A stretch of DNA of 64,000 nucleotides, from the NCBI GenBank assembly GCA_947502145.1, contig CANMYO010000002.1, positions 62,001-126,000 of the forward strand, in the 5' to 3' direction. The first letter of the stretch is position 1. Each line of letters starts with the position of its first letter. Below are positions 46,803 to 64,000 of this stretch, in pieces. The position numbers and the translations under genes were made by a program. The notes below the pieces were generated by a model, which was not told where the DNA came from, did not search any database, and saw nothing but the letters and a program-made list of their open reading frames with translations. Source of the DNA: an uncultured Paracoccaceae bacterium. Its GTDB lineage: Bacteria; Pseudomonadota; Alphaproteobacteria; Rhodobacterales; Rhodobacteraceae.

Positions 46803-46820
46803 CTAAGACGGAGCCCGTAG

Positions 46821-49172: not shown

Positions 49173-50025
49173 TCAACCACGCAACCTGACCGCCGGTGCG
49201 TGGTTGCTGACGGACATGGCGCTGAACATCTGGGCGCTGTCGATTGTAAAGGCACTGGGCTTGGGCGTGCCTGCCTTTCAGCTTGTCCTTTTGCGTGCTG
49301 CTGTTGGTCTTGTGCTGATGTTGCCTTGGATACTGCGACAGCGGCGCTGCTTTGTCGGTGTGGCGGACCTGCGCCTGCATGCGTTGCGCGTCGGGTTCTC
49401 CGCGATGGCGCTGACGGCCAGTTTTTTCGCCATCGCAAGGCTGCCCTTGGCATTGTTCACGGCCATCGGCTTTACCCGGCCAATCCTGACCATGATCATG
49501 GCGGCATGGCTGCTGCGCGAGCCGATCTCAAACGCGCGCTGGCTTGCGGCGGCTATCGGGTTTGGCGGGGTGATCATTGCGGTTGACCCGTCACAGATAA
49601 CCGGGGGATGGGGGGTGGCGGCGCAATTGCTGACCGTTTGTGCGGCAACCGGGGCGGTGATCACCACCCGCAAACTGGTGTGCGCACCGGTCGTTGTGAT
49701 GATGACCTTCTATACCGCCGGTCTGACCCTGATCGCAGCGCCCATTGCGCTGCTGAACTGGCAGACCGTACCCGCCGAACAATGGCCGGCGCTTCTTGCG
49801 ATTGGGTGCTTTGCGCAATCAGCACAGTTCTGTTTCCTGCAGGCGCATAAATTTGGGCAGGCCGCGTTTCTGGCGATCCTGTCCTATGCCAGCTTGGTGT
49901 TTTCGACCGGCGTTGGCTATTTCGTCTTTGACGAGTTGCCAAAGCCGGGTTTCTGGTTGGGGGCAGGGATGATTGTCGCGGCAACGCTGTGGATTACCCA
50001 GCGGGCAGCGCGCCGGACGTCGTGA
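49156..50025 (+). CDS. DMT/EamA-family transporter
   Basis: 289 residues if the TTG at 49156, inside the PIG-L 3' end, is the start; the N-terminal ~20 residues are therefore uncertain and an ATG at 49216 is possible but would cut the first helix. Ten predicted helices with two EamA repeats, e.g. ALTASFFAIARLPLALFTAI, RPILTMIMAAWLLREPISNA and the second repeat SAQFCFLQAHKFGQAAFLAI. Probably coupled to the PIG-L gene; might export a by-product of the pathway. Confidence 0.82.
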   Translation: MQSAVDQPRNLTAGAWLLTDMALNIWALSIVKALGLGVPAFQLVLLRAAVGLVLMLPWILRQRRCFVGVADLRLHALRVGFSAMALTASFFAIARLPLALFTAIGFTRPILTMIMAAWLLREPISNARWLAAAIGFGGVIIAVDPSQITGGWGVAAQLLTVCAATGAVITTRKLVCAPVVVMMTFYTAGLTLIAAPIALLNWQTVPAEQWPALLAIGCFAQSAQFCFLQAHKFGQAAFLAILSYASLVFSTGVGYFVFDELPKPGFWLGAGMIVAATLWITQRAARRTS

Positions 50026-50042: not shown

Positions 50043-51053
50043 TCATTCTTCGGGCAGATTTTCGCGAAAGATGATCTGCACCCGCGGCGGGACCATGCGA
50101 TAGCTTTTGCCACGCGCGGCCTGGGCCAGCGTCTGCAGGGCTTCGCGCACCTGTAGCCGGGCATTCTGATCAATGATCGCATCCAATGTGCCTTCCAACA
50201 GCAGTGATTCATTCCCCGCGGTCGCATCATGGGCGACAAAGATGATGTCGGGATAGGCGGCGAGTTCCGCGCCAATGCCTGCGGTTGCGCCGCCCGCGTT
50301 GTAGATGCCCGCAAGGTCAGGATGCGCCGCAAGCAGGGCCGATACACGCGCGCGGGCTTTGGCGCGATCTTCGTGCACATCAGCGATCTCGACAAGTTCC
50401 AGATGCGGGAATTCCTCGGTCAGGATCTGGCGAAAGCCCATTTCACGTTCCTGATGCCCGCGGTAGGACAGAGACCCGGCGAATGCGGCAATCTTGCAGG
50501 GCTGTCCCTTTGGCAGCAGGCGTCCCAGGATATAGCCTGCCAGCCGCCCCGCCTGCGCATTATTAAGTCCGATGTAGCCCAGGTGAGGCAAGGAAGGAAT
50601 GTCCGAGGCGATCGTGACCACGTGAACGCCGCTGACGATCAGGTGACGTATCGCATCGCGCACGGCGGGGTGATCAATGGCGACGATGGCGATGCCATCA
50701 ACCTTGCCCTTCAGCCCCCTAAGCGATTGCGCCAGCAGCAACGGTTTCATGCGCGGTATCTCATGCACAAACGCGGTGACACCCGGCATGGTGCTGGCCT
50801 GATCGGCAACATGTTGGCCAAGTTCGTGGATAAACGCATTTGTGCCTTTGGGCAGGGCAAAGGCCAGTCGCACCGGGCGGTCCGCTTGCGCGACAGGCGA
50901 AGGCGTGTCGCGATAGCCAAGCGTTGCCGCAGCCTCAAGCACGCGGGCGCGGCTGCGGGCAGAGGTGCTGCCACGGCCATTCATGACGCGGTCCACTGTC
51001 GCCAGCGAGACACCGGATGCAGCAGCGATATCGGTCAGCGTGGGGAGTGGCAT
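50043..51053 (-). CDS. LacI-family transcriptional regulator
   Basis: 336 residues from the ATG at 51051-51053 (MPLPTLTDIAAASGVSLATV), placed where the HTH begins; the frame runs on to 51170 but that part overlaps the divergent promoter region. HTH TLTDIAAASGVSLATVDRVM with the hinge helix SARSRARVLEAAATLGY. The effector domain is of the periplasmic-binding-protein type (GYIGLNNAQAGRLAGYILG, VFVAHDAT-like FVAHDATAGNESLLLEG). Divergent from the long moc-like operon, hence its likely regulator with a sugar or cyclitol effector. Confidence 0.88.
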   Translation of the reverse strand: MPLPTLTDIAAASGVSLATVDRVMNGRGSTSARSRARVLEAAATLGYRDTPSPVAQADRPVRLAFALPKGTNAFIHELGQHVADQASTMPGVTAFVHEIPRMKPLLLAQSLRGLKGKVDGIAIVAIDHPAVRDAIRHLIVSGVHVVTIASDIPSLPHLGYIGLNNAQAGRLAGYILGRLLPKGQPCKIAAFAGSLSYRGHQEREMGFRQILTEEFPHLELVEIADVHEDRAKARARVSALLAAHPDLAGIYNAGGATAGIGAELAAYPDIIFVAHDATAGNESLLLEGTLDAIIDQNARLQVREALQTLAQAARGKSYRMVPPRVQIIFRENLPEE

Positions 51054-51065
51054 CAGCAATCCAAA

Positions 51066-51085
51066 TTTGAGGTGTTTTGAGGTGT
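51066..51085. repeat. tandem 10-bp direct repeat before the LacI gene
   Basis: TTTGAGGTGT occurs twice head to tail, one helical turn apart, 13 bp upstream of the LacI-family start. It could be a regulator site or a chance duplication. Confidence 0.35.
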
Positions 51086-51177
51086 TATAGATTTCATATG
51101 CTGCCCTGACCAGTGGTAAAATCTTCGAAAAACTTATGTATTGGGCGCGGCAAACATCAAAACGCATCAAGATTCTG

Positions 51178-51207
51178 TTGACAGGCGCGGGCCCCTGCCG
51201 CGATCAT
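51178..51207 (+). promoter_or_regulatory. candidate promoter of the moc-like operon
   Basis: A consensus -35 TTGACA (51178-51183) is followed after 18 bp by GATCAT (51202-51207), a fair -10. The start would fall about 25 nt before the DUF4432 ATG at 51237. The rest of this 183-bp divergent gap shows only the direct repeat and a short ACCA-N-TGGT dyad near 51111. Confidence 0.4.
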
Positions 51208-51236
51208 TCGGGGATGGAATCGCCCCGGGGGGAGGC

Positions 51237-52418
51237 ATGACCCAGCTTTATGGCACGTCCCATGACCAGCAGTCCCTGGCCGCCCACACCGGGCGACTGT
51301 CGCAATGTGCTGGCGTGCGGTTGGTAACACTGGCTGACGGGGCCGGGCGCGGCGTGCGCCTGCTGGAGTTTGAGACAGGCAGCGGGCTGCGGTTTGACGT
51401 GGCGCTGGACCGGGCGATGGATATCGCAACGATGTCCCACAATGGCCGCGCCATTGGCTGGCAGTCGCCCGTCGGGATCAAACATCCAGCATTTGTGGAT
51501 CATGAGGGCGAAGACGGGCTGGGATGGACCCGTGGTTTCAGCGGTATGCTGTCAACCTGCGGGCTGGACCATATCCTTGGCCCGGAAGAGGTTTCCGCCG
51601 AAAGCTATAATTACCCCCGTAAGGCCCGCATGCGGCATGGTCTGCACGGGCGGATTGCGATGGCACCAGCGCAATTGAAGGGTTACGGCTGCGATTGGCA
51701 GGAAGACAAATGCATCCTTTGGGCCGCGGGCCTGATCGAACAGACCACCGTCTTTGGCGAGGTGTTGCACCTGCATCGCCGGATCGAGGCGGATCTGGGT
51801 GGCAATACCCTGCGTCTCGCAGATCGCGTTGAAAACGCCGGCTTTTCAACGACGCCGCACATGATGATGTACCATTTTAATCTGGGATACCCGGTGGTCG
51901 ATGCTGCCGCGCGTTATCTGGCGCCGATTGGTGATGTGGTCTGGGCCGCACATGATCTGCGCGCGCAGCAGGTTGGATATCGGACCTGCCCGGCTCCGGT
52001 GGTGAGGTTTGGCGAACAGGTCTGGCAACATCAGATGATCAGCGACGCAGCAGGGCAGGTCCCCGTTGCGGTGGTCAATGACCGTATCGGTCTTGGTGTC
52101 GAGATCACAAGCGACGCGGCGCAACTGCCTTGTGCGTTTCAATGGCAGAATTTCCAGGCCGGGCATTATGTCATGGGGGTCGAACCTTCGACGCACCACA
52201 TCAAGGGCAACCAGTTTGCCCGCGACCGGGACGAAATGATCTGGCTGCGGGCAGGCGAGGATCGTCGCTATGACCTGCAAGTGCAGGTGCTGGATGGCGC
52301 GGACGAAATTGCAGGCGCGGAAGCACGAATTCAGGCGATTGCAAGCCAACCCGATACCGATTTCCCGACGCCTTCCGGCGACTTTGTTGCGTTGCATCAG
52401 GGTGCAAGGGCAGAATGA
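51237..52418 (+). CDS. DUF4432 aldose-epimerase-like protein
   Basis: 393 residues from the ATG at 51237, directly after GGGGGGAGGC. DUF4432 proteins have a galactose mutarotase-like beta-sandwich. Visible features: FDVALDRAMDIATMSHNGRAIGW, YNYPRKARMRHGLHGRIAMAP with His residues, and MMMYHFNLGYPVVDAAARYL; late HYVMGVEPSTHHIKGN. Predicted to bind or epimerise a sugar hemiacetal. First gene of the moc-like operon, overlapping the oxygenase gene by ATGA. Confidence 0.85.
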   Translation: MTQLYGTSHDQQSLAAHTGRLSQCAGVRLVTLADGAGRGVRLLEFETGSGLRFDVALDRAMDIATMSHNGRAIGWQSPVGIKHPAFVDHEGEDGLGWTRGFSGMLSTCGLDHILGPEEVSAESYNYPRKARMRHGLHGRIAMAPAQLKGYGCDWQEDKCILWAAGLIEQTTVFGEVLHLHRRIEADLGGNTLRLADRVENAGFSTTPHMMMYHFNLGYPVVDAAARYLAPIGDVVWAAHDLRAQQVGYRTCPAPVVRFGEQVWQHQMISDAAGQVPVAVVNDRIGLGVEITSDAAQLPCAFQWQNFQAGHYVMGVEPSTHHIKGNQFARDRDEMIWLRAGEDRRYDLQVQVLDGADEIAGAEARIQAIASQPDTDFPTPSGDFVALHQGARAE

Positions 52419-53512
52419 ACATTGCAGCAAACCACACCGCTAAACGGGATTACAGCCTGACCGGGCCTGAAAGCGCCCATGCCGTCGCGGCGGGGCTGGC
52501 ATCGGCGGACTGGTATCACTCTGACCTGCCGCGAAAAGAAATGAAGGCTTTGATGCGCCGCTCTGACCAGCAGGCCGACCGCGATACGGTATTGTGGTTT
52601 GCGCTGCTGATCCTGACGGGCGGGGCCGGTGCCTTTCTTTGGGGCTCCTGGGCGGCTGTCCCGTTCTTTCTGGCCTATGGCGTCCTTTATGGTTCGGTCT
52701 GTGACAGCCGTTGGCATGAATGCGGTCATGGGACGGCGTTCAAGACGACATGGAAGAATGACGTGGTCTATCACATCGCCAGCTTCATGGTCATGCGCAA
52801 TCCGATCGCGTGGCGGTGGAGCCATGCCCGCCATCACACGGATACGATCATCGTGGGGCGGGACCCGGAAATCGCTGTCATGCGGCCACCCGAAATGGCG
52901 CTGCTAGCGCTGAAGTTTTTCGGGCTGCCGAGTGCGGTCTACGATCTGCGCGCGCTGTTGCGTAATGCGTGGGGGCGATTGTCAGACGACGAAGGCGATT
53001 TCATCCCCGAAGCAGAACAGGGCAAGGCTGTATTCTGGGCCCGCGTGCATATGGCGATCTATTGTGGTGCGGTGCTCTGGGCCGTGCTGGCCTGGTCGAT
53101 CCTGCCGCTGATGCTCATTGGTGGCCCGCGTCTTTATGGCTGTTGGCATATGGTGATGATGGGGCTGATCCAGCATGGCGGTTTGGCCGAAGACGTGCTG
53201 GATCATCGATTGAACAGCCGGACTGTCTATATCAATCCGATAAGTCGCTGGCTTTACTGGAACATGAATTACCATGTGGAACATCACATGTTTCCCATGG
53301 TGCCCTATCACGCGCTGCCCGCCCTTCACGCACGGATCAAGGATGACCTGCCAGCGCCAAACAGGTCGATAGCCGATGCCTATCGCGACATGATTGGCGC
53401 ATTGCTACGCCAACGCAAGGAGCCGGGCTATGCAATTCGCCCCGTGCTACCTAGCACCGCACGACCTTACCGCGAAGAATTACACGATGTTGATATTGCA
53501 AGGGAAAGTTAG
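52415..53512 (+). CDS. fatty acid desaturase-type diiron oxygenase, MocD-like
   Basis: 365 residues, membrane-bound with hydrophobic pairs at ~60-95 and ~212-240. Three His boxes place the diiron site: HECGHGTAF (101-109), SHARHHTDT (136-144) and NYHVEHHMFP (286-295), plus His254 in IQHGG. The Rieske ferredoxin gene follows directly (start at the next base after the stop). In rhizobial rhizopine catabolism MocD with ferredoxin MocE is proposed to remove an O-methyl group oxidatively; the same reaction on an O-methyl sugar or cyclitol is inferred. No mocF-type reductase is in the window. Confidence 0.82.
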   Translation: MNIAANHTAKRDYSLTGPESAHAVAAGLASADWYHSDLPRKEMKALMRRSDQQADRDTVLWFALLILTGGAGAFLWGSWAAVPFFLAYGVLYGSVCDSRWHECGHGTAFKTTWKNDVVYHIASFMVMRNPIAWRWSHARHHTDTIIVGRDPEIAVMRPPEMALLALKFFGLPSAVYDLRALLRNAWGRLSDDEGDFIPEAEQGKAVFWARVHMAIYCGAVLWAVLAWSILPLMLIGGPRLYGCWHMVMMGLIQHGGLAEDVLDHRLNSRTVYINPISRWLYWNMNYHVEHHMFPMVPYHALPALHARIKDDLPAPNRSIADAYRDMIGALLRQRKEPGYAIRPVLPSTARPYREELHDVDIARES

Positions 53513-53824
53513 ATGGCCTGGATTGACGTGTGTGACGCAGAAGATATCGAATTGGAGGACGTGATCCGCTTTGACCACGCCGGGCGTACTTTTGCGATCT
53601 ACCGCGATCTGGAAGGTCAGGTCTTTGCCACCGACGGGCTTTGCACCCACGAACAGGTGCATCTGGCTGATGGGCTGGTGATGGATGATACAATTGAATG
53701 CCCCAAGCATAACGGGCGGTTCAACTATCAGACCGGAGAAGCCCTGCGGGCACCGGTCTGCGTCAATCTGGCAACCTATCCGGCCCGCCTGAATGGCGCG
53801 CGCATCGAAATTGAGGTCTCCTAG
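53513..53824 (+). CDS. MocE-type Rieske [2Fe-2S] ferredoxin
   Basis: 103 residues. Rieske cluster ligands are Cys44-His46 in GLCTHEQVHLADG and Cys63-His66 in IECPKHNGRFN, the C-x-H ... C-x-x-H pattern of soluble bacterial Rieske ferredoxins. It lies immediately after the diiron oxygenase gene and one base before the PanB-like gene. Electron donor to the oxygenase by context. Confidence 0.9.
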   Translation: MAWIDVCDAEDIELEDVIRFDHAGRTFAIYRDLEGQVFATDGLCTHEQVHLADGLVMDDTIECPKHNGRFNYQTGEALRAPVCVNLATYPARLNGARIEIEVS

Positions 53825-54616
53825 ATGGAGCGGCGCTTACCTTCGGTTGCAGATCTACGGGCGCGTAAGGGCGAGCAGCTGACTATGCTGCGTTTCTTCA
53901 CGATGGCAGAGGCCCACGCAGCAGAGGCGGCCGCCATCGATATTGCGTCGGTCCCGCCTGATCTTGTCGCCAACCCCGATTATCGAAAGGCCGCGCCGGG
54001 CATATTCACCATGACCGGCAAGACCCATCTCGAATATGGCGCGCCCGAAGAATATCTGCGCGACGCGGGGCAGATGATCCTGAATGGGGCTGATGCCGTC
54101 TATTGCTCTGGCAGTCTGGATACCGTGGCCCGGCTTGCCCGCGAATATATTCCGGTTGTCGGCCATGTCGGGCTGGTGCCGGCGCGGGCCACCTGGACGG
54201 GCGGATTCAGTGCCGTTGGCAAAACCGCGAAAGAGGCGCTGCAGCTTTATGCGGCCTGCAAGGCCTATCGGGATGCCGGCGCATTTGCGGTCGAGATAGA
54301 GGTTGTCCCGGTTGAAGTCGCCAGCGCCATCAGCGCCCGACTTGATCTGCTGTTGTGGTCAATGGGGGCGGGCGCAGGCTGTGATGCGCAATACCTTTTT
54401 GCCGAAGATATCCTGGGCGAAAACCGCGGCCATGTTCCGCGCCACGCAAAGGTCTATCGCGACTTTGCAGCGGAATACGACCGATTGCAGGCAGAACGGG
54501 TGGCGGCGTTTTCGGAATTTCGTGCAGACGTGGTATCCGGGGCGTTTCCGCAAGCGCCACATCTCGTTCACATGGCACCGGCAGAGCTTGACGCCTTCCG
54601 AGAGGCGCTGGAATGA
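53825..54616 (+). CDS. PanB (ketopantoate hydroxymethyltransferase)-like protein lacking metal ligands
   Basis: 263 residues, PanB length. Family features: N-terminal VADLRARKGEQLTMLRFF, PVVGHVGLVPARATWTGGFSA, DAGAFAVEIEVVPVEVASAI with Glu159 at the place of the catalytic base, and MGAGAGCDAQYLFAEDILGE. By eye the three Mg2+ ligands of E. coli PanB (Asp45, Asp84, Glu114) are replaced: VPPD for VGDS, TGKT for ADLP, and YCSGS for KIEGG. So the enzyme probably does not make ketopantoate. It sits in the operon after the oxygenase-ferredoxin pair; a role in C1 or aldol chemistry of the pathway is speculative. Confidence 0.8.
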   Translation: MERRLPSVADLRARKGEQLTMLRFFTMAEAHAAEAAAIDIASVPPDLVANPDYRKAAPGIFTMTGKTHLEYGAPEEYLRDAGQMILNGADAVYCSGSLDTVARLAREYIPVVGHVGLVPARATWTGGFSAVGKTAKEALQLYAACKAYRDAGAFAVEIEVVPVEVASAISARLDLLLWSMGAGAGCDAQYLFAEDILGENRGHVPRHAKVYRDFAAEYDRLQAERVAAFSEFRADVVSGAFPQAPHLVHMAPAELDAFREALE

Positions 54617-55377
54617 AGCTTGAGCTAAGCGATAGGGTGGTCGTTGTCACCGGTGCCGCCAAGGGTATTGGTCTGGCGATTTCAAAGGCCGTGGCCGATG
54701 CGCAGCCTGCCGGGTTGCTGATGACCGACATGGACGCCGCCGTGTTGCAAGAGGCCAAGGCGCTGGATGCCACGGCGGTCGTCTCGGACCTGCTGGGCCG
54801 GACTGCGCCGGACACGATCATGACCACGGCAATCAACCGGTTTGGTCGCGTTGACGGGCTTGTGAATGCGGCCGGCCTGACGACGCGTGGATCGGTGCAA
54901 TCAGGCAGCGAAGAGCTCTGGGATGCGCTGTTTGCAATCAATGCAAAGGCGCCGTTCTTTTTGATGCAGAAGGTCATCAACGATCTGTCAGAGCGGGGCG
55001 CAGCGGGCAGCATCGTTAATGTGCTGTCGATCCATGCGCATGGTGGCGCGCCTGATCTGGGGATCTACGCAGGCAGCAAAGGCGCGCTCGCCACATTGAC
55101 CAAGAATGCTGCCAACGCCCATTTGCCGCAGCGCATTCGGATCAACGGCATCAACCTTGGCTGGGTTGCGACGCCATCGGAACACCACATGCAAGCCAAC
55201 ATCCTCGGCCAGGGCCCCGACTGGCAGGCCGCCGTCGCCAGCACCCGTCCGCTTGGCCGTCTGATTACCGCGCAGGAGGCGGCGAAACTTGCGCTGTTCT
55301 TGCTCTCGGACCTGTCCATCCCAATGACCGGTGCGCTGATCGATCTTGAACAACATGTCACGGGGGCGATCCATTGA
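54613..55377 (+). CDS. SDR-family oxidoreductase
   Basis: 254 residues. Classical SDR: cofactor motif TGAAKGIG, structural NAAG (NAAGLTTRG), catalytic Ser in NVLSIHAHGG, and YAGSK with Tyr and Lys. An acidic residue after beta-2 (MTDMDAAV) suggests NAD over NADP. ATGA overlap with the PanB-like gene. Likely oxidises a hydroxyl of the sugar or cyclitol after demethylation; substrate unknown. Confidence 0.92.
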   Translation: MKLELSDRVVVVTGAAKGIGLAISKAVADAQPAGLLMTDMDAAVLQEAKALDATAVVSDLLGRTAPDTIMTTAINRFGRVDGLVNAAGLTTRGSVQSGSEELWDALFAINAKAPFFLMQKVINDLSERGAAGSIVNVLSIHAHGGAPDLGIYAGSKGALATLTKNAANAHLPQRIRINGINLGWVATPSEHHMQANILGQGPDWQAAVASTRPLGRLITAQEAAKLALFLLSDLSIPMTGALIDLEQHVTGAIH

Positions 55378-56093
55378 ACGGCTTTGATTTCACCCGTCAC
55401 CGAGTCTGCATCATTGGCGCAAGCCAAGGCGGCATCGGCGCTGCAATGGCACATGAATTCGCCAGTGCTGGGGCAGAGGTGGTGATAACTGGTATCGAAG
55501 ATGCGCCGCTGCCCGCAGAACAGGCGGCATTTGCCTATCAGCAGCTTGACGTCACGGATGCGCATGCAATTGACGGTTTTGCGGCCGGGTTGGCCGGGCT
55601 GGATGTTCTGATCAACTGCGCTGCGATCACAGCGCGCGGGGCCGAGATGGATGATGCCTTCTTTGCCAAGGTGCTCGACGTCAACCTGCAGGGCAGCCTG
55701 CGCACCGCGCGAGCATTTCATCATCATTTGCGCAACCGGCAGGGCAGCGTGATCAATGTCGCGTCGATGTATGCCCAATTCGGGTCACCGCAAAACCCTG
55801 CCTATGGGGCCAGCAAGGCAGGGGTGCAGCAGCTGACCAAATCACTGGCGATCGCCTGGGCGGGTGATGGCATCCGGGTGAACGCAATCGCGCCCGGCTT
55901 TGTCGTGACGGCCCAGTCGGCAAAGTCGCGCGAGGATTCTCTGCATGTGGAAAACGTCACAAAACGTACCCCCCTTGGGCGCTGGGCCAATCCAGCTGAC
56001 ATCGCTGGCGCGGCGCTGTTTCTCGCGTCGCCTATGGCGGGTTTTATCACCGGCACCTGCATTCCTATTGACGGGGGATACTCAATTGCGTGA
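55374..56093 (+). CDS. SDR-family oxidoreductase
   Basis: 239 residues starting at TTG 55374, which overlaps the preceding stop (TTGA); no better start is in frame. Cofactor motif reads GASQGGIG, NCAA at the NNAG position, Ser in NVASMYAQFG and YGASK for the active site, GGYSIA at the end. Second dehydrogenase in tandem; the pair could act on successive carbons or opposite directions. Confidence 0.9.
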   Translation: MNGFDFTRHRVCIIGASQGGIGAAMAHEFASAGAEVVITGIEDAPLPAEQAAFAYQQLDVTDAHAIDGFAAGLAGLDVLINCAAITARGAEMDDAFFAKVLDVNLQGSLRTARAFHHHLRNRQGSVINVASMYAQFGSPQNPAYGASKAGVQQLTKSLAIAWAGDGIRVNAIAPGFVVTAQSAKSREDSLHVENVTKRTPLGRWANPADIAGAALFLASPMAGFITGTCIPIDGGYSIA

Positions 56094-56114
56094 GCCTGAT
56101 ACGAAGGAGGAACC

Positions 56115-57275
56115 ATGTCAGACCTGACGTCCATTACGGCCGCCGTCATTGGGACCGGGTTCATTGGGGGTGTCCATATAGGCGCGCTGCGTCGCCTTGG
56201 CCTGGATGTCAAAGGTGTACTTGGCTCAAGCGCGGCGCGCGGACGTGAAGGCGCGCTGGCCCATGGCGTTGCGCAGTCCTACGATGACCTTGATGCGCTG
56301 CTGTCTGATGATGCTGTCGACGTGGTGCATGTCACCTCTCCAAATTACGCCCATTACGATCAGGTGAAGGCGGTTCTTGCGGCGGGTAAGCATGTGATCT
56401 GCGAAAAGCCGCTCGCGATGACTGCGTCACAATCCGCCGAAATGGTGGCATTGGCGCGGGCATCGGGGCTGATCGCTGCGGTATGCTACAACATCCGGTT
56501 CTATCCACTGAACCAGCACGCGCGCGGCATGGTTGCCGAGGGCGCGATGGGGGATTTGCGTTTTATCACAGGTCATTACCATCAGGACTGGCTCGCCAAG
56601 CCAACGGACTGGAACTGGCGCCTTGAGGTCGAATCGGGCGGTGCGCTGCGGTCGGTGGGGGATATTGGGACACATTGGGTGGATCTGATGACCTTTGTCA
56701 CCGGACAGCGCGTGACTGAGGTGTTTGCCGATTTGACGACCTTCATTCCGCAACGCCAAAAACCGGTTGGCCCGGTTGAGACCTTTGGCAAGGGCACCTC
56801 GGGCGCGACGCAGACGCAGCAGATTCAGACCGACGACGCGGCGATGATCATGCTGCGATTTGATGGTGGGGCAAAAGGGGTGATGACAACCAGCCAGATC
56901 AATATTGGGCGCAAGAATTCGTTACAGTGGGAAATCGCCGGGTCCGCATGTTCCGCGGCATGGGACAGCGAAACACCCGACCATCTGTTTATCGGGCACC
57001 GCGATGCGCCCAACCAGATCCTGCAGCGGGATGCGGCGATGATGAACGCCACCGGCGCTGCGGCCGCGGCGATGCCCGGTGGCCATGTGGAAGGATTTGC
57101 AGACAGCTTCCGTGCCTTCTTTGCCCAGGTCTATGGTGACGTGTCTCGCGGAAGACGCTCCGCTGATGCCACCTGGGCCAGCTTTGCCGATGGGCATCAT
57201 GAAATGGAGTTCTGTGATGCGGTACTCGCAAGCCACGCCAGCGGTGGCTGGGTATCACTAGGGGGGACAAGCTGA
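56115..57275 (+). CDS. Gfo/Idh/MocA-family oxidoreductase (MocA-like)
   Basis: 386 residues. N-terminal Rossmann motif VIGTGFIGGVHIGAL, the EKP motif (VICEKPLAM) with catalytic Lys, and a C-terminal substrate domain with DWNWRLEVESGGALRSVGDI and HWVDL. Strong ribosome site AAGGAGG at 56103-56110, the best in this operon. In rhizopine loci MocA is such a dehydrogenase; here it adjoins the MocC-like isomerase with TGATG overlap. Confidence 0.92.
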   Translation: MSDLTSITAAVIGTGFIGGVHIGALRRLGLDVKGVLGSSAARGREGALAHGVAQSYDDLDALLSDDAVDVVHVTSPNYAHYDQVKAVLAAGKHVICEKPLAMTASQSAEMVALARASGLIAAVCYNIRFYPLNQHARGMVAEGAMGDLRFITGHYHQDWLAKPTDWNWRLEVESGGALRSVGDIGTHWVDLMTFVTGQRVTEVFADLTTFIPQRQKPVGPVETFGKGTSGATQTQQIQTDDAAMIMLRFDGGAKGVMTTSQINIGRKNSLQWEIAGSACSAAWDSETPDHLFIGHRDAPNQILQRDAAMMNATGAAAAAMPGGHVEGFADSFRAFFAQVYGDVSRGRRSADATWASFADGHHEMEFCDAVLASHASGGWVSLGGTS

Positions 57276-58186
57276 TGCAACTTGGATTACTGACTGCGCC
57301 GTTTGAGGACACCAACCTGATCGAGGTCGCTGACTGGACGGCAGCCAATGGCATGAGCGCACTTGAAATTGCCTGCTGGCCCGCCAGCGGTGGCGAAAAG
57401 CGCCGCTATGCGGGCACCAGCCACATCAATGTGGATGGGCTGACGCAGGCGCAGGGCGCAGACATCATTGCCGCGCTGGACGACAAGGGCATCACCGTGT
57501 CCGGGCTGGGCTATTATCCCAATCCGCTACATCGGGACGCCGATCATCGAGACGCGGTCATCGGCCACCTCAAAAAGGTGATCACCGCTGCGGGCCTGAT
57601 GGGCGTGCCTGTGGTGAATACCTTTGTCGGGGGGGATCGCGCGCTTGGCGTTGATGACAACTGGACCCGCGCAACGCAAATTTTCCCCGATATCGTGCGA
57701 CATGCGCAGGATGCGGGCGTGACGCTGGCCTTTGAGAACTGCCCGATGATCTTTTCGCAGGATGAATGGCCCGGCGGACACAATATCGCCTACAGTCCAC
57801 GTATCTGGCGCCGCATTCTTGAAACCTGGGATGGGGTTGGGATGAACTTCGACCCCAGTCACCTTGTCCTGCAAATGATTGATCAGGGTCGCTTCATCCG
57901 CGAATTTGGCAGCCATTTTGCCCATGTCCACGCCAAGGACCTGATGATCGACCGCGACGGGCTATACGAACGGGGTATCCTGTCCGCCGGGATGGGCTGG
58001 CAGGTGCCGCGGCTTTGCGGGCTTGGGGATGTCGACTGGGGCGACTTTTTTGGCCAGCTCTATCGGGTTGGCTATGACGGCGCAGTCATCATCGAACACG
58101 AAGACCGCGATTTTGAAGGCAGTGATGACAAGGTGAAACGGGGTTTCTGCCTTGCCCGCGATATTTTGAGCCCCTTCATCAAATAG
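57275..58186 (+). CDS. sugar phosphate isomerase/epimerase (AP endonuclease 2 fold, MocC-like)
   Basis: 303 residues, TIM-barrel of the xylose isomerase-like superfamily. Metal-site candidates: TLAFENCPMIFSQDEWPGGH (Glu), MNFDPSHLVLQMID (Asp, His), HVHAKDLMIDRDG (His) and VIIEHEDRDFEG (Glu). Start ATG overlaps the dehydrogenase stop. MocC of rhizopine loci belongs to this family. Followed by a 40-nt gap and the binding-protein gene. Confidence 0.88.
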   Translation: MQLGLLTAPFEDTNLIEVADWTAANGMSALEIACWPASGGEKRRYAGTSHINVDGLTQAQGADIIAALDDKGITVSGLGYYPNPLHRDADHRDAVIGHLKKVITAAGLMGVPVVNTFVGGDRALGVDDNWTRATQIFPDIVRHAQDAGVTLAFENCPMIFSQDEWPGGHNIAYSPRIWRRILETWDGVGMNFDPSHLVLQMIDQGRFIREFGSHFAHVHAKDLMIDRDGLYERGILSAGMGWQVPRLCGLGDVDWGDFFGQLYRVGYDGAVIIEHEDRDFEGSDDKVKRGFCLARDILSPFIK

Positions 58187-58226
58187 GGGCATGTAGGACG
58201 ACCAAAACCTTTAGGGAGGAAGATCA

Positions 58227-59264
58227 ATGAAAAGATTTATGTCAACCACAGCGGCGATTGCGATGCTGACCACCAGCCTGTCTGGTGCTGCATTTGCCGA
58301 GGGTCACGGTGGCTATACGCTGGGCATTTCAAACACGGTGCAGGGCAATGGCTGGCGCGAAGAAATGGTCTGCGCAATGAAGGCGCAGGCGCTGGTGTCG
58401 GGCAAGGTTGATGCGCTCAACATTGCGCACCGCAACACCGATGCGGCGGGCCAGCTTGAGGACATCCGCAATCTGATCGAAGCGGGTGTTGATGCGATTG
58501 TACTGAACCCCGCCAATTCAGAGGCTGTGAACTCGGCCATTGAAGAGGCAATTGCCGCAGGCATCGTTGTTGTCGCCGTGGATCAGGCAGTCACTGCCGA
58601 AGGGGCCTATGTGCTGTCTAACAATCAGGAAGAATACGCCTACCTCGGGGCGAAATGGCTGTTCGAAGAGCTCGGCGGGTCCGGTGATGTGGTCTATATG
58701 CGCGGCGCTGCCGGTGCTGGCGCTGACAATGACCGCGACACCGGCTTCAAACGCGCGCTGGCAGAATTCCCTGACATCAACGTCGCCCATGAGGTCTTTA
58801 CAGGTTGGCAGCAAGATCAGGGCAAGCAGCAGATCCTTGACTATCTGGCGACTGGTCTGCCCGTTGACGGTGTCTGGACCTCGGGCATCGACAATGTGAT
58901 CGTGGATGCCTTTGTGGAAAGTGACGTCCCACTTGTGCCCATCGTCGGTGCGGACAACGCCGGGTTTGTCGGCCAGCTGGCAAACATGGAAGGGTTCACC
59001 GGCGCGGCGGTCACCAATCCGGGCTCAATCGGCGGTGCCGGCGTGACACTGGCGCTGCAGGTTCTGGATGGTGAAATTCCCGACAGCAACACCGTGCATG
59101 TTGATCCTTCAATCTGGGCCAACAACGATCCCGCCGGCATGGAGCTGATTGCCGGCGCTCAGAACCCCAACCTTGACCCGGAATGGCCGGTCAGCGTGAT
59201 GATTCCGGGATGGACAGACTATTCCATGGAAGAAATCATCGCCTGTAAAGGTCCGGGCGAATAG
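58227..59264 (+). CDS. sugar ABC transporter substrate-binding protein (RbsB/MocB-like)
   Basis: 345 residues, signal peptide ending SGAAFAEGHG. Periplasmic binding protein type I with LGISNTVQGNGWREEMVCAM, IEAGVDAIVLNPANSEAVNS and VVAVDQAVTAEGAYVLSNNQ, the ribose/inositol-binding class. Ribosome site AGGGAGGAAGATCA. Downstream hairpin at 59272-59297 and then the ATPase gene. Probably binds the O-methylated compound or a related cyclitol. Confidence 0.9.
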   Translation: MKRFMSTTAAIAMLTTSLSGAAFAEGHGGYTLGISNTVQGNGWREEMVCAMKAQALVSGKVDALNIAHRNTDAAGQLEDIRNLIEAGVDAIVLNPANSEAVNSAIEEAIAAGIVVVAVDQAVTAEGAYVLSNNQEEYAYLGAKWLFEELGGSGDVVYMRGAAGAGADNDRDTGFKRALAEFPDINVAHEVFTGWQQDQGKQQILDYLATGLPVDGVWTSGIDNVIVDAFVESDVPLVPIVGADNAGFVGQLANMEGFTGAAVTNPGSIGGAGVTLALQVLDGEIPDSNTVHVDPSIWANNDPAGMELIAGAQNPNLDPEWPVSVMIPGWTDYSMEEIIACKGPGE

Positions 59265-59271
59265 GCAGACA

Positions 59272-59297
59272 ACGGCCCCGGCATCCGTCGGGGCCGT
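59272..59297 (+). terminator. intercistronic hairpin after the binding-protein gene
   Basis: ACGGCCCCG and CGGGGCCGT form a perfect 9-bp stem with an 8-nt loop starting 8 nt after the stop, then ACCTTCTTT. Probably partial attenuation that keeps binding protein in excess over the ATPase and permeases. Confidence 0.65.
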
Positions 59298-59323
59298 ACC
59301 TTCTTTGACGATTGGCTGATATC

Positions 59324-60811
59324 ATGACCAGCGACACGCCCCTGCTGCATGCCAGCGGGGTTTCCAAACGGTTTGGCGCGGTTGTGGCGCTGAAGGATGC
59401 TTCGCTCACCATCAAGAAGGGCGAAATCGTCGCCCTGATGGGTGCAAACGGTGCCGGCAAATCCACGTTTGTCAAAGTCCTGACCGGGGCGCTGAAACGT
59501 GACAACGGAACGGTGAAAATTCACGGCGCGGACCAGCATATCGGTTCACCGGGCGCGGCGCGGCGTGCCGGACTTGTGCCGGTCTATCAGGAGCCCTCGC
59601 TGATCCCCGATCTGGACGTTGCGGACAATCTGGCGCTGGGCAATACGCCGGTTGAACCATTCCTGCACTGGGTTGAGGCGCTTGGGATCAGCGGATTGCG
59701 GCTGGATGACATGATCGGCAACCTGCCGCTGGCGACCTTGCGCATTCTTGATCTCGCCCGCGCGCTGGCCAGCGAACCCGAGGTGCTCTTGCTGGACGAG
59801 ATGACAGCCGCCCTGCCCACCGATCTGGTAGAAAAGGTGCTCGCCGTCGTGCGCGGGCAGGCCGACAAGGGGCAGGCGGTCATCTATATTTCGCACCGGT
59901 TCACTGAAATCGCGGAAATCTGTGATCGTGCCACGGTGTTGCGTGATGGCGAGACCGTTGGCGATCTCGCCATCGCTGACGGGGTCGAAGACAAGGTGGT
60001 CGAACTGATGCTGGGGGCCGCTCTTGGCGCTGGTCCTGCCGTTGCGGAGGCAAGCGCCAGACCCACAGGCGTGCCACGCCTTGATGTGCACCAGCTGCGG
60101 GCGGGGACACGGCTGGCAGATGTCAGCCTGCAACTTTTTCCCGGCGAGGTGCTTGGCGTAGTCGCACTCGAAGGGCAGGGACAGGACGAATTGTTTGATG
60201 CCATCGCCGGGATGATCCGGCCCGATGGCGGCACCATGGCCGTCAATGGCAAGGAGGTGCGATTCCATCATCCTGCCGATGCGATTGCGCAGGGCCTGAC
60301 ATTTGTGCCCGGAGATCGCGCCGAAGGGCTGCTGATGCAGCGCAGCGTACATGAAAACATCGCCCTTCCGATGCTGGCACGGATGCGCAACTGGGGCGCG
60401 ATCAAGATGCGGCGCGAGGCGTCAAAGGTGCGGGATGCCGTCGCACGGATGCAGATCGACATTCGCGCCCAGGGCGAGGTGCAGCGCCTCTCGGGGGGCA
60501 ATCAGCAAAAGGTGACAATCGGGCGCTGGATCGCAACCGGTGTCGAGACACTTTTGCTGTTTGACCCCACGCGCGGGATTGATGTGCGCACCAAACGTCA
60601 AATCTACGGGTTGGTGCGTGAATTGGCGGATCAGGGTGCGGCGGTGCTCTATTACACCTCGGAACTGGCCGAGGTGCCAGCGGCCTGTGACCGCGCCGTC
60701 GTGATCTTTCAGGGGCGTGTCGTCGATGTGATCCCTGCGGACAGAGCGGACGAACAGACGTTAATGCGCGCTGCCTACGGGCTGACCAACGCGCATGAGG
60801 TGCCTGCATGA
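59324..60811 (+). CDS. sugar ABC transporter ATPase, two fused ABC domains (RbsA/MglA type)
   Basis: 495 residues from the ATG at 59324; an in-frame TTG at 59312 is less likely. Domain 1 has Walker A GANGAGKST (40-48), Walker B Asp158-Glu159 (followed by Met instead of Pro) and His191, but its signature reads LPLAT (134-138) instead of LSxGQ. Domain 2 has signature LSGGNQ (389-394) but a weak Walker A (EGQGQ, 283-287) and Walker B TLLLFDPTRG with Phe413-Asp414 for Asp-Glu. Domain 2 Walker A decay is usual in this family; loss of signature 1 is not. Stop overlaps the next permease. Confidence 0.88.
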   Translation: MTSDTPLLHASGVSKRFGAVVALKDASLTIKKGEIVALMGANGAGKSTFVKVLTGALKRDNGTVKIHGADQHIGSPGAARRAGLVPVYQEPSLIPDLDVADNLALGNTPVEPFLHWVEALGISGLRLDDMIGNLPLATLRILDLARALASEPEVLLLDEMTAALPTDLVEKVLAVVRGQADKGQAVIYISHRFTEIAEICDRATVLRDGETVGDLAIADGVEDKVVELMLGAALGAGPAVAEASARPTGVPRLDVHQLRAGTRLADVSLQLFPGEVLGVVALEGQGQDELFDAIAGMIRPDGGTMAVNGKEVRFHHPADAIAQGLTFVPGDRAEGLLMQRSVHENIALPMLARMRNWGAIKMRREASKVRDAVARMQIDIRAQGEVQRLSGGNQQKVTIGRWIATGVETLLLFDPTRGIDVRTKRQIYGLVRELADQGAAVLYYTSELAEVPAACDRAVVIFQGRVVDVIPADRADEQTLMRAAYGLTNAHEVPA

Positions 60812-61755
60812 CACGGTTGTTTGGCAAACATGGCTGGGTCATCGGGCTTGCTGCCCTTCTGGCGCTGCTGTTCTTGTTTACCCGTCTCATCCAGCCTGGG
60901 TTTGGCGCATCAGGGCTTGATTCACTGGCCCGCGCTACATTGCCCTTTGCCTTTGCCACCGCGGCGATGGCGGTTGTGGTGATCGCGGGCGGGATTGACC
61001 TGTCGGTGGCCTCCATGATGGCCGTCGCCGGCGTGACCGCTGCGGTCTTGATGGACGGGGCAGGCACCGGGTTTTCAGTTTTTGCAGTGGTGCTGGTGCT
61101 GGGACTTGGCCTTGTCATGGGGGCCATAAATGGCGCGCTGATCGTGGTTACGAAAGTGCCCGATATCGTGGTGACATTGGCGATGCTTTTTGTCTGGGAA
61201 GGGACCGCATTGTTGATCCTGAATGCGCCCGGCGGCGCGGCGGCGCCCTGGCTGCGCAACATCGTTGTCGGATCGGTGATTTTCCCATGGTTGCCAAAGG
61301 CTTTTGTTGTGTTGTTGATCTGTCTGGCCGTGGTCTGGGTGCCGTTACGCCGTTCAAAACTGGGGCTTTCGATCTACGCTATCGGCTCAAATGAACTCGC
61401 GGCGTACCGCTCTGGCGTGGCAATCGGGCGCACCCGGATCGCGGCCTACGCGCTATGCGGGCTGTTTGCGGCGATGGGCGGTCTGGCCCTGACCAGTGCA
61501 ACCGGCATCGGAGAACCGATCCCCGGCCCCTATCTGATGGCCAGTGTCGCAGCGGTTGTGCTGGGTGGCGTTGTGCTGGGCGGCGGCCGTGGGGCCCTGC
61601 TGGGGCCAATCGTGGCGGTGTTCATCCTGCGGCTGGTGCGGATGGATCTGACGCTGCTGTCGGTCGATCCCAACATCACGACAATCGTCGAAGGATCGAT
61701 CATGGTCGCCGTGGTGATGCTTGGCGGAATTCTGGCAGCAAGGGCAAGGTCATGA
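60808..61755 (+). CDS. sugar ABC transporter permease (RbsC type)
   Basis: 315 residues, 8-10 helices. The family motif GGIDLSVASMMAVAGVTAAV and the late GGVVLGGGRGALLGPIVAVF loop are present. Shares ATGA overlaps with the ATPase gene before and the second permease after. Heterodimeric permease with the next gene. Confidence 0.9.
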   Translation: MTRLFGKHGWVIGLAALLALLFLFTRLIQPGFGASGLDSLARATLPFAFATAAMAVVVIAGGIDLSVASMMAVAGVTAAVLMDGAGTGFSVFAVVLVLGLGLVMGAINGALIVVTKVPDIVVTLAMLFVWEGTALLILNAPGGAAAPWLRNIVVGSVIFPWLPKAFVVLLICLAVVWVPLRRSKLGLSIYAIGSNELAAYRSGVAIGRTRIAAYALCGLFAAMGGLALTSATGIGEPIPGPYLMASVAAVVLGGVVLGGGRGALLGPIVAVFILRLVRMDLTLLSVDPNITTIVEGSIMVAVVMLGGILAARARS

Positions 61756-62726
61756 GCGCGACAGAAAACATTCCCAGGCTGACCCGCATGGGTCGGTTCT
61801 TGCGCGACTATCCGATCATCCCGCTGATCATCCTGCTGATCTGTCTGATTGCAACGCTCGAATTCCTGCGCCCCGGTATCGTCAACGAACGCTGGATCGG
61901 AAACACGATCAAGTTCGCCATCCCGCTGGCCATGCTTGCGGCCTGTCAGACCTTGACCATGCTCACGGGCGGGATCGACCTGTCTGCCTCAGTCGCGGCA
62001 ACAATCAGCGCCTTTGTGATGGCTACGCAGGTGCCTATCGTCGGTGCACCGCTGGCGATCTGTATTGGTCTGGTCCCGGCGATCCTGATCGGGCTCGTCA
62101 ACGGATTTGGCGTTGCCGCCTGCCGGGTGCATCCGCTGATCATGACGCTTGGCACCGGGTTGATCGCGACCGGTTGTCTGCAGGTTTACCAGCGCTTTGT
62201 CATCGCAAGCGGCTCTGTCGTTCCCGAGGGGCTGGCGTGGCTGGGCACCGGGCGGACATGGGGGATGCCCAATGCGCTGCTGGTGTTTGTGCCCTTCGCA
62301 GTGCTGATCATCTGGGCGCAGCGGCGCACCGGTTTTGGCCGGTTGCTCTATGCCTTGGGCTCAAACGAGACAGCGGCCAGAATCTCCGGGGTACGCAGCT
62401 GGCAGGTCTACCTGGCGCTTTATGCCCTGTCGGGGTTGATCGCCGGCGTCGCCGGGCTGATCTACGTCGGCTTGATCAAGGCCCCATCGCTGTCGCTGGT
62501 CAATCCACTGTTGCTGCCTTCGGTCGCCGCCGCGGTGATCGGCGGGACATCAATCTTTGGCGGGCGCGGCGGCTATGCCGGGACAATCGTCGGGGCCTTG
62601 ATTCTGACCGTGCTGGGGACGCTCCTGACATTGATGCAGATCCCCGAGGGCGCACGGCGGATCTTTTTCGGGCTGATCATACTGGCCGTCACGACAGTTT
62701 ACATCAAGCTCACCGACCAAAGCTGA
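61752..62726 (+). CDS. sugar ABC transporter permease (RbsC type), second
   Basis: 324 residues from the ATG at 61752, overlapping the previous stop. Contains TGGIDLSASVAATISAFVMA and the GGTSIFGGRGGYAGTIVGAL loop. Longer in-frame extension into the first permease gene is not supported. Two different permeases with one two-domain ATPase is a common layout in alphaproteobacterial CUT2 importers. Confidence 0.9.
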   Translation: MSATENIPRLTRMGRFLRDYPIIPLIILLICLIATLEFLRPGIVNERWIGNTIKFAIPLAMLAACQTLTMLTGGIDLSASVAATISAFVMATQVPIVGAPLAICIGLVPAILIGLVNGFGVAACRVHPLIMTLGTGLIATGCLQVYQRFVIASGSVVPEGLAWLGTGRTWGMPNALLVFVPFAVLIIWAQRRTGFGRLLYALGSNETAARISGVRSWQVYLALYALSGLIAGVAGLIYVGLIKAPSLSLVNPLLLPSVAAAVIGGTSIFGGRGGYAGTIVGALILTVLGTLLTLMQIPEGARRIFFGLIILAVTTVYIKLTDQS

Positions 62727-62737
62727 GGGAGTTCATA

Positions 62738-63811
62738 ATGGCAAAGTGGAAAATCGCGGGCATTCGTTTCGACCACATGCACATGGGGGATTTGCTGCGA
62801 ATGGTCACCGATCATCCTGACGCCGAAATCTGCGGCATCTATGATCCCGACCCGCAAAAGATGGCGGCGGCCATCGCCGCATTTGGCATCCCGCCTGACC
62901 GGGTCTTCACTGATCTTGATGCCTGCATGGCCACCGGCCCGGACCTTGCGATCCTCTGCGCCACGACGGCCGATCATGCCGAATACACCGAACGGCTCGC
63001 GCCTCATGGTGTGCATGTCTTTGTCGAAAAACCCTTTGCGGCCAACGTCGCGGATGCGCGCCGGATGATCGCCGCGATGGCGGACACCGGCAAGTTGATG
63101 GCGATCAACTGGCCCCTGGCCTGGGTCGAAAGCCATGTCACGGCAAAGCGACTGATCGAGTCCGGCACGATTGGTGATCTTGTCGAAGTCCATTTCTATG
63201 ATGGCAATCGCGGCCCGCTCTATCATCTGGCCGACAAGGTTGAAGTTTCGCCAGCAGAGGTCGAGCGGCAGAAGCCGGATTCATGGTGGTACAAGAAGGC
63301 GGCAGGCGGAGGCAGCCTTCTTGATTACCTCGGTTACGGTGCGACGCTGGGCACATGGTACATGGATGGTGCCGCCCCGATTGAGGTGACTTGTGTGGTG
63401 GACGAGACTACCGGCATCGAAGTTGACCAGCATTCCATCACCGTATGTCGCTATGCGCAGGGCCTGTCCAAGATGGAAACCCGCTGGGGCACATTCACCG
63501 ATCCCTGGACGATTCAGCCACAGCCGACCTGCGGCTTTGTCTTTGTCGGGACGGATGGCACAATCGCAAGCGCAGATTATGCTGATCATGTCACCCTGCA
63601 GACCCGCGCCGTCCCTGATCTGACCAAAATACCGGTTGATCCGCTGCCCCCCGGCAGGCGCAATGGCATCGAATACGTACTGGACTGTTTGGGTAGTGGC
63701 ACTGCCATCGGCGGGCCGCTTGACCCCGCGCTCTGCCTGACCGCCCAACGGATCGTGGATACCGCTGCGGCCTCTGCCGCAGAAAAACGCACACTGGCGT
63801 TGCTGCCATGA
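62738..63811 (+). CDS. Gfo/Idh/MocA-family oxidoreductase with atypical Rossmann motif
   Basis: 357 residues from the ATG at 62738. The usual GxGxxG is replaced by AGIRFDHMHMGDLLRM, a variant that lacks the glycine triad. The EKP motif (VFVEKPFAANV) and the C-terminal domain with SWWYKKAAGGGSLLDYLGYG are clear. Whether it binds NAD the normal way is open. Stop overlaps the next dehydrogenase gene by ATGA. Confidence 0.87.
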   Translation: MAKWKIAGIRFDHMHMGDLLRMVTDHPDAEICGIYDPDPQKMAAAIAAFGIPPDRVFTDLDACMATGPDLAILCATTADHAEYTERLAPHGVHVFVEKPFAANVADARRMIAAMADTGKLMAINWPLAWVESHVTAKRLIESGTIGDLVEVHFYDGNRGPLYHLADKVEVSPAEVERQKPDSWWYKKAAGGGSLLDYLGYGATLGTWYMDGAAPIEVTCVVDETTGIEVDQHSITVCRYAQGLSKMETRWGTFTDPWTIQPQPTCGFVFVGTDGTIASADYADHVTLQTRAVPDLTKIPVDPLPPGRRNGIEYVLDCLGSGTAIGGPLDPALCLTAQRIVDTAAASAAEKRTLALLP

Positions 63812-64000
63812 CGGAAACCCCTGACGCTGATACTTATGCATTGCGCAGCAGGACTACTGCGCATGTGGATGCGCCCGACCTCCCGTATCAGCCTCCCATG
63901 CCAAAGGCCTATCGCCCGCGGATTGGGGTCATCGGGGCGGGCGGAATTGTGGATGCACATCTGGACGCCTATCGGGCCGCGGGATGGGACGTCGCAGTGA
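63808..64000 (+). CDS. Gfo/Idh/MocA-family oxidoreductase, 5' part (runs off the window)
   Basis: Starts at ATG 63808 overlapping the upstream stop. The visible 64 residues are a polar N-terminal extension (TETPDADTYALRSRTTAHVD, then PYQPPMPKAYRPR) and the beginning of a Rossmann domain with an intact motif, IGVIGAGGIVDAHLDAYRAA. Third dehydrogenase of this type in the operon. The rest lies beyond the right edge. Confidence 0.8.
   Translation, partial: MTETPDADTYALRSRTTAHVDAPDLPYQPPMPKAYRPRIGVIGAGGIVDAHLDAYRAAGWDVAV

Follow-up and report, generated by a model that had tools for sequence, protein, structure and literature searches.

A PanB-like protein lacking canonical PanB residues recurs beside membrane diiron oxygenases, including in a putative O-methyl sugar or cyclitol operon of a Paracoccaceae bacterium

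In the accessible part of PMC10107442, the genes of rhizopine catabolism are given as mocDEF, mocR, mocBA, and mocC, and one of the rhizopines is methylated. A network paper lists S. meliloti SMb20817-20820 as LacI, mocD, mocE, and mocF among expression neighbors and assigns them no function (PMC11387232, in the passages available), and this was the only paper naming SMb20817-20822 that we found in the open-access literature. On plasmid pA of R. etli CIAT 652, the genome annotation places mocD, mocEa, mocFa, and a "ketopantoate hydroxymethyltransferase" gene next to one another (L198). We take mocDEF to be the remover of the rhizopine methyl group. The papers found did not describe MocD/MocE oxygenase chemistry, and none found in the open-access literature tied a PanB homolog to mocD or mocE. 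Here, we describe an operon in a 64,000-nucleotide stretch (the window) at positions 62001 to 126000 of contig C2 in the 4.03-Mb genome of an uncultured Paracoccaceae bacterium. In this operon, genes for a MocD-type oxygenase and a MocE-type ferredoxin are followed by one for a PanB-like protein related to ketopantoate hydroxymethyltransferase (KPHMT). Comparison of loci shows this protein to be a regular neighbor of two families of predicted membrane diiron oxygenases; its presence varies, whereas the oxygenase and much of the pathway are kept. We tentatively propose that the operon serves the LacI-controlled import and breakdown of an O-methyl sugar or cyclitol, with the PanB-like protein handling the one-carbon product.

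The right end of the window falls inside the operon. Reading past position 64000, we found by translation and family searches a run of 15 forward-strand genes diverging from the LacI gene. They encode, in order, DUF4432, the oxygenase, MocE, the PanB-like protein, two short-chain dehydrogenases (SDRs), a Gfo/Idh dehydrogenase, an AP_endonuc_2 protein, a binding protein, an ATPase, two permeases, and three more Gfo/Idh dehydrogenases. The first-pass annotation had described a run of at least 14 genes, and those it named were all present in the order and on the strands it gave. The window shares with the rhizopine moc locus a MocD-type oxygenase, MocE, Gfo/Idh and AP_endonuc_2 proteins, and a sugar-type binding protein. 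It differs in having LacI in place of MocR, in the absence of mocF from the run, and in the addition of the PanB-like protein, DUF4432, two SDRs, and three more Gfo/Idh genes. A true rhizopine locus in a Roseobacter-type genome would fit the MocD, MocE, Gfo/Idh, and AP_endonuc_2 genes together with a sugar ATP-binding cassette (ABC) system, but the regulator, the missing mocF, and the binding protein speak so clearly against it that we rejected it as very improbable. The binding protein did not match the rhizopine binding-protein model NF052284 at E 1e-3; only the window LacI protein gave a weak match to that model (24.8 bits versus a cutoff of 420). The earlier label "rhizopine-like" thus holds in the sense that the operon appears to work like one, and not for a rhizopine locus itself. 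The R. etli pA and S. meliloti SMb20817-20820 loci resemble the window in their adjoining LacI, MocD, and MocE genes and in having a PanB-like gene (L198 and L003), whereas they carry mocF and have no attached set of SDR, Gfo/Idh, isomerase, and importer genes like that of the window. The levoglucosan 3-keto pathway (LgdA, LgdB1-3, and LgdC; PMC10066097, in the part available) likewise combines Gfo/Idh and AP_endonuc_2 proteins with an ABC sugar importer, while the window operon has in addition an oxygenase and a ferredoxin. This pathway was rejected as a candidate, with the levoglucosan dehydrogenase equivalog model NF052479 giving 173.1 bits against a cutoff of 650.

To count the neighbors of PanB-like genes, we used 398 genomes drawn evenly from the phylum. 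At a threshold of E 1e-40, PanB-like genes were found at 26 places in 19 of these genomes. A PF00487 MocD match lay within 5 kb at 18 of the 26 places, and a PF04116-type oxygenase gene adjoined the PanB-like gene at 2. At another two (L151 and L152), the cluster was headed by a same-strand PF04116-type gene lying about 8 kb away and opposite a LacI gene; these genes scored 285 and 288 bits against a PF04116 member. PF04116 was assigned by Pfam for L089, L091, L092, and L153, and the other PF04116-type genes were recognized from their annotation or their similarity to those at these four loci. A MocD, MocE, or PF04116-type gene lay within about 1.5 kb of 21 of the 26 PanB-like genes versus 0 of 25 true panB genes, and this 25-locus control led us to reject chance clustering. 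We also retrieved 80 loci with the PanB-like sequence as the only criterion; these were the best 80 of at least 450 relatives, and 50 of them bear Mesorhizobium or Rhizobium names. MocD was encoded on the same strand no more than 6 kb away in 76 of the 80, MocE was found in 64, and DUF4432 was found in 41. An earlier pass without a distance rule gave MocD in 82 of 84 PanB-like loci. In tblastn searches of plasmids, the PanB-like gene adjoined those for MocD and MocE in Rhizobium and S. meliloti records; in other records, it stood beside a PF04116-type oxygenase gene in differing settings, some with a Rieske or Fer2 ferredoxin and a flavin adenine dinucleotide (FAD) reductase. The group of oxygenase, MocE, and PanB-like protein was found across tens of species. 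On a Phaeobacter plasmid (L089:8343-10825), a gene annotated as inositol oxygenase family lies directly ahead of the PF04116 oxygenase and PanB-like genes.

The rest of the operon is conserved in part without the PanB-like gene. L209, from another genus of the same family (G183), has the part of the window operon that begins with MocD and ends with the fourth Gfo/Idh gene, with no DUF4432, PanB-like, or detected MocE gene. Over the stretch read, L163 (G208) has a window-type operon with MocE and without DUF4432 and PanB-like genes. In L207 (G274), relatives of the first SDR, the isomerase, the binding protein, the ATPase, and a permease of the window occur with a PanB-like gene and a PF04116-type oxygenase gene in place of MocD. 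Since L207 pairs window-type genes with this combination, the PF00487 and PF04116 oxygenase types seem to be interchangeable. In the oxygenase tree, oxygenases from loci without PanB-like genes (L156, L161, and L163; L157 to L160 and L162) were nested in groups that have them, with some joints weakly supported. Together with the operons that have no PanB-like gene, this implies that the gene has been repeatedly gained or lost while the oxygenase and catabolic genes stayed. Such a pattern is as would be expected for an accessory protein rather than a step of the pathway. From this gain and loss and from the apparent exchange of oxygenases, we infer that the PanB-like protein serves the product of the oxygenase. 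If both oxygenase types remove methyl groups, that product would be a one-carbon unit. The extra PanB-like and DUF4432 genes had been read as marks of a different substrate. They need not be, because the L209 and L163 operons lack both and the PanB-like gene accompanies the oxygenase in other catabolic settings as well.

The PanB-like gene (53825 to 54616, forward strand) encodes a PF02548 protein. Its predicted structure (predicted local distance difference test score, 80.8; predicted template modeling score, 0.81) had KPHMT as the best structural match by a wide margin, so the name given in the first-pass annotation is right for the fold. It is not right for the active site. We take the metal and keto-acid residues of PanB to be Asp45, Asp84, Lys112, and Glu114 (E. 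coli numbering). In our alignment, the columns for Asp84, Lys112, and Glu114 held these residues in 23 of 23 true PanB sequences and in 0 of 15 PanB-like sequences, and the Asp45 column, within a gapped stretch, held Asp in 2 of the 15. The 14 other PanB-like sequences are 34 to 70% identical to that of the window; L096 was kept out because of a stop codon in its range, and both L095 and L096 are unannotated. The true PanB sequences represent 23 of 25 loci, which were the top-scoring places from a 40-genome draw; L006 and L191 failed a filter requiring Gly-Asp-Ser and His-x-Gly-Leu type motifs, which fixes the Asp45 and Ser46 columns by construction but not those of Asp84, Lys112, and Glu114. 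Where true PanB carries other residues, all 15 PanB-like sequences have Glu157, Ser179, and His207. Across the window protein and 24 closer relatives, Glu157 and Ser179 were invariant and His207 was conserved in 90% or more without being universal. From the ancestral PanB site, His114 and Glu159 are retained. The curated PanB models gave scores under their cutoffs (NF001452, 117 versus 272 bits; TIGR00222, 92.3 versus 207.55 bits). With these scores and the canonical residues gone, we rejected true PanB activity for this protein, and the comparison suggests that "panB"-type annotations beside such oxygenases are wrong.

The same genome has a true PanB on contig C1 and, besides the operon copy on C2, a divergent second PanB-like copy on C6, which has a PF00487 oxygenase on one side and a Rieske-type ferredoxin on the other (L097:9444-12458 and L008:1042-3294). 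A class II aldolase gene lies ahead of this second triad.

The loss of the PanB metal and keto-acid residues, together with the way in which the PanB-like gene tracks the oxygenase and not the pathway, would also suit a noncatalytic partner, such as a scaffold for assembly or electron transfer or one that regulates the oxygenase. We consider this improbable, since the retained His114 and Glu159 and the further polar residues fixed in 15 sequences resemble an active site.

The oxygenase gene (52415 to 53512, forward strand; PF00487, 130.6 bits) encodes the His boxes HECGH, HARHH, and HVEHH. His101/His105, His137/His140/His141, and His287/His290/His291 were invariant in 21 aligned sequences, including that of the window. 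In a tree of 55 sequences, the window oxygenase grouped with R. etli mocD (L198; clade support, 0.96), and four PF00487 paralogs from its own genome (L098, L100, L101, and L103) fell outside this MocD clade; the deep nodes of the tree are weak or unsupported, and the sampled set does not include characterized lipid desaturases. The genome has nine PF00487 places, comprising the oxygenases of the two triads, the four paralogs in the tree, two that gave no match, and one with no locus. Within these bounds, the protein belongs by sequence to the MocD clade of PF00487 oxygenases, in keeping with the MocD label of the first-pass annotation. MocE (53513 to 53824, forward strand), a Rieske [2Fe-2S] ferredoxin, passes the curated MocE family model TIGR02377 (163.3 bits versus a cutoff of 136.15). 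The best match to the S. meliloti mocF-type reductase in the window genome was on contig C1 at 41% identity.

Enzymes of PF00487 and PF04116 mostly hydroxylate or desaturate C-H bonds. Given this usual chemistry, the oxygenase might instead act on a ring or side-chain carbon of a substrate without a methyl group, and the PanB-like protein could then act on a C-hydroxymethyl product. We think this unlikely. The curated lipid desaturase models gave the oxygenase 31 bits against a cutoff of 500. The window enzyme also shares a clade with a gene named mocD, and the mocDEF genes are part of rhizopine catabolism, with one of the rhizopines being methylated (PMC10107442, accessible part).

Several loci show other arrangements of these oxygenases. 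In other lineages of the phylum, seven loci (L168, L169, L170, L172, L173, L228, and L229) have a compact group of MocD, MocE, and ferredoxin reductase genes with a divergent AP_endonuc_2-type protein and no PanB-like gene; the AP_endonuc_2-type protein may play a related partner role there. On plasmid pUSP3 of Aminobacter sp. MSH1, from herbicide-treated soil (L201:8965-11620), a MocD-like oxygenase, a ferredoxin, and a reductase are encoded together, with thiamine-diphosphate and Gfo/Idh genes a few kilobases away. MocE was not detected beside MocD at L135:8504-10413 and L161:6384-8281, where the ferredoxin is probably encoded elsewhere.

Taken together, the association between oxygenase and PanB-like protein is strong at the level of gene neighborhoods, and from it we infer a chemistry for O-methyl sugar or cyclitol breakdown. 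The substrate would likely be taken up by the ABC system. The MocD-type oxygenase would then probably hydroxylate the O-methyl carbon to give a hydroxymethyl ether that collapses, with electrons from MocE supplied by a ferredoxin reductase encoded elsewhere. The PanB-like protein, a presumed descendant of KPHMT minus the metal/keto-acid site, could perhaps capture the formaldehyde or hydroxymethyl group, making the reaction safer or faster without being essential to it. DUF4432 may adjust the ring or anomeric form, and the Gfo/Idh, SDR, and AP_endonuc_2 enzymes would oxidize and rearrange the ring, either by 3-keto chemistry or through the separate iol pathway of the genome. In a more far-reaching form of the proposal, which we judge unlikely, the PanB-like protein would be a new one-carbon enzyme that takes hydroxymethyl or formaldehyde straight from PF00487 and PF04116 oxygenases, giving demethylation without free formaldehyde. 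A review of nicotine catabolism (PMC3891541, in the part available) describes an ordinary panB and a different enzyme that passes methyl carbon to folate. At L091, one of the loci with a PF04116 oxygenase, the run includes a gene of the alcohol dehydrogenase family.

A number of observations weigh against a one-carbon role for the PanB-like protein. Four of the 26 PanB-like places in the genome draw (G067, G299, G004, and G059) have no oxygenase gene; in G067, the PanB-like gene adjoins genes for a tripartite ATP-independent periplasmic (TRAP)-like transporter, that in G004 is at a contig start, and that in G059 is a fragment. Only 15 of the 35 strong MocD places in the draw have a PanB-like gene within 5 kb, so the protein is not required for MocD function. 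This cross-count used 62 of 71 MocD places, omitting the 9 lowest-scoring, none of which is in a genome with a PanB-like gene, and of the 20 strong places without one, the stretches L158, L160, and L165 are shorter. In the annotated clusters read, for which the plasmid tables are incomplete, we noticed no folate genes. The glutathione-dependent formaldehyde dehydrogenase of the window genome scored above its cutoff and could do the job alone. His207 lies within a low-confidence loop of the structural model (residues 201 to 209), and the loop at 118 to 127 is of low confidence as well.

Finally, DUF4432 was present at 4 of the 16 drawn loci with both PanB-like and MocD genes (5 of 17 once the window is counted) and at none of the 20 strong MocD places that lack a PanB-like gene, a co-occurrence that leaves room for a role on the sugar skeleton. 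The PanB-like protein could then be an ordinary catabolic enzyme (an aldolase, lyase, isomerase, or hydrolase) working on the demethylated skeleton, perhaps with DUF4432, and would have no one-carbon role. The 41 DUF4432 genes among the best 80 loci fit this view, and the new conserved residues (Glu, Ser, and His) point to an active site that has been rebuilt. Against it, much the same operon occurs in L209 and L163 without either gene, and plasmid record L200 has DUF4432 and MocD without a PanB-like gene. Moreover, annotations elsewhere place the PanB-like gene with mandelate- and proline-racemase family, ribokinase, amidase, and amino acid transport genes. On balance, we regard a skeleton enzyme as a serious though rather unlikely explanation and retain, as a tentative proposal, a protein that handles the one-carbon product of the oxygenase.

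The LacI-family regulator (50043 to 51053, reverse strand; PF00356 and PF13407) has a longest open reading frame (ORF) extending to 51170. A repeat search found an imperfect palindrome, with arms 77% complementary, at 51117 to 51136 in the divergent promoter region, and this is a candidate LacI operator. The run genes, all on the forward strand, mostly overlap or almost abut. DUF4432 (51237 to 52418; ORF open from 51141) belongs to the aldose 1-epimerase superfamily (PF14486, 320 bits; PDB 3ty1, E 9.9e-32). Behind the PanB-like gene are the two SDRs (54613 to 55377, NF004847, 279.5 bits versus a cutoff of 240; 55374 to 56093, PF13561, 189.7 bits) and the first Gfo/Idh/MocA dehydrogenase (56115 to 57275; PF01408), whose PDB relatives include the scyllo-inositol/L-glucose dehydrogenase 5ya8 and the group of 6a3f. 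The AP_endonuc_2 TIM-barrel protein (57275 to 58186; PF01261, 100 bits) is isomerase/dehydratase-like and weakly matches the 2-hydroxy-3-keto-glucal hydratase 8ro4 (E 2e-4).

The importer comprises a periplasmic sugar-binding protein of the Peripla_BP_4 family (58227 to 59264; PF13407, 162 bits), a two-domain ATPase of the AraG/RbsA type (59324 to 60811; best NCBIfam score, 357.7 bits, under the cutoff of 689), an AraH/RbsC-like permease (60808 to 61755; score under cutoff), and a second permease (61752 to 62726; PF02653, Pfam search only). The largest gap in the run lies between the binding protein and ATPase genes. It holds an 11-pair stem-loop on the forward strand (59272 to 59297), a possible attenuator and a likely spot for damping expression of the transporter genes downstream, although a promoter and terminator scan found such sites in the region at about the shuffled expectation. 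The second Gfo/Idh/MocA dehydrogenase (62738 to 63811; PF01408 and PF22725) is followed by a third, which begins in the window at 63808 and ends past 64000 at about 64929, and by a fourth Gfo/Idh gene beyond it (about 64926 to 65942; L002:1926-2942).

Past the fourth Gfo/Idh gene, a convergent metal-type ABC transporter was named by eye in the 20 kb right of the window. The first-pass annotation had pointed to this stretch as a place to look for a reductase or iol genes. By eye, we recognized neither a ferredoxin reductase nor iol genes in those 20 kb, and genome-wide searches with the S. meliloti reductase and iolD placed no match in them; what the sequence yielded was the completion of one Gfo/Idh gene and the addition of another. 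Upstream of the LacI gene, forward-strand genes at 45642 to 50025 of the window look by eye like a ROK-type regulator, a PIG-L type deacetylase, and a drug/metabolite transporter (DMT)-type transporter.

Family searches placed the binding protein, ATPase, and permeases with sugar-type transporters of the monosaccharide type, bearing out the sugar importer of the first-pass annotation, and the presence of DUF4432 is a hint that the substrate is a reducing sugar. The pairing of Gfo/Idh and AP_endonuc_2 proteins resembles 3-keto pathways, with no equivalog match. No protein of the run reached the cutoff of an iol model (the second permease was searched against Pfam only). The reported lack of iol genes therefore stands for the run and for what was recognized in the next 20 kb, and not for the genome: iolD on contig C1 scored above its curated cutoff, with neighbors that look by eye like iol genes. 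Because of these genes elsewhere, the absence of iol genes from the run argues little, and we rejected it as grounds for excluding a cyclitol. On an R. leguminosarum plasmid (L199:2768-14984), an ABC importer, Gfo/Idh, an isomerase, an annotated sterol-desaturase-family gene, and MocD form one run, with iolE and iolD nearby on the opposite strand. This may be an O-methyl inositol locus in which both oxygenase types are used, and it shows oxygenases of this kind occurring alongside inositol genes. Among the matches listed in the open-access literature for DUF4432, O-methyl sugars, and pinitol, we found no matching gene set.

A recurring partner of two oxygenase families, built on a dismantled vitamin-biosynthesis site, would offer a handle on how sugars or cyclitols are demethylated and on the fate of the toxic one-carbon product. 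Since the PanB-like partner is present in S. meliloti and R. etli, its gene could be deleted there.

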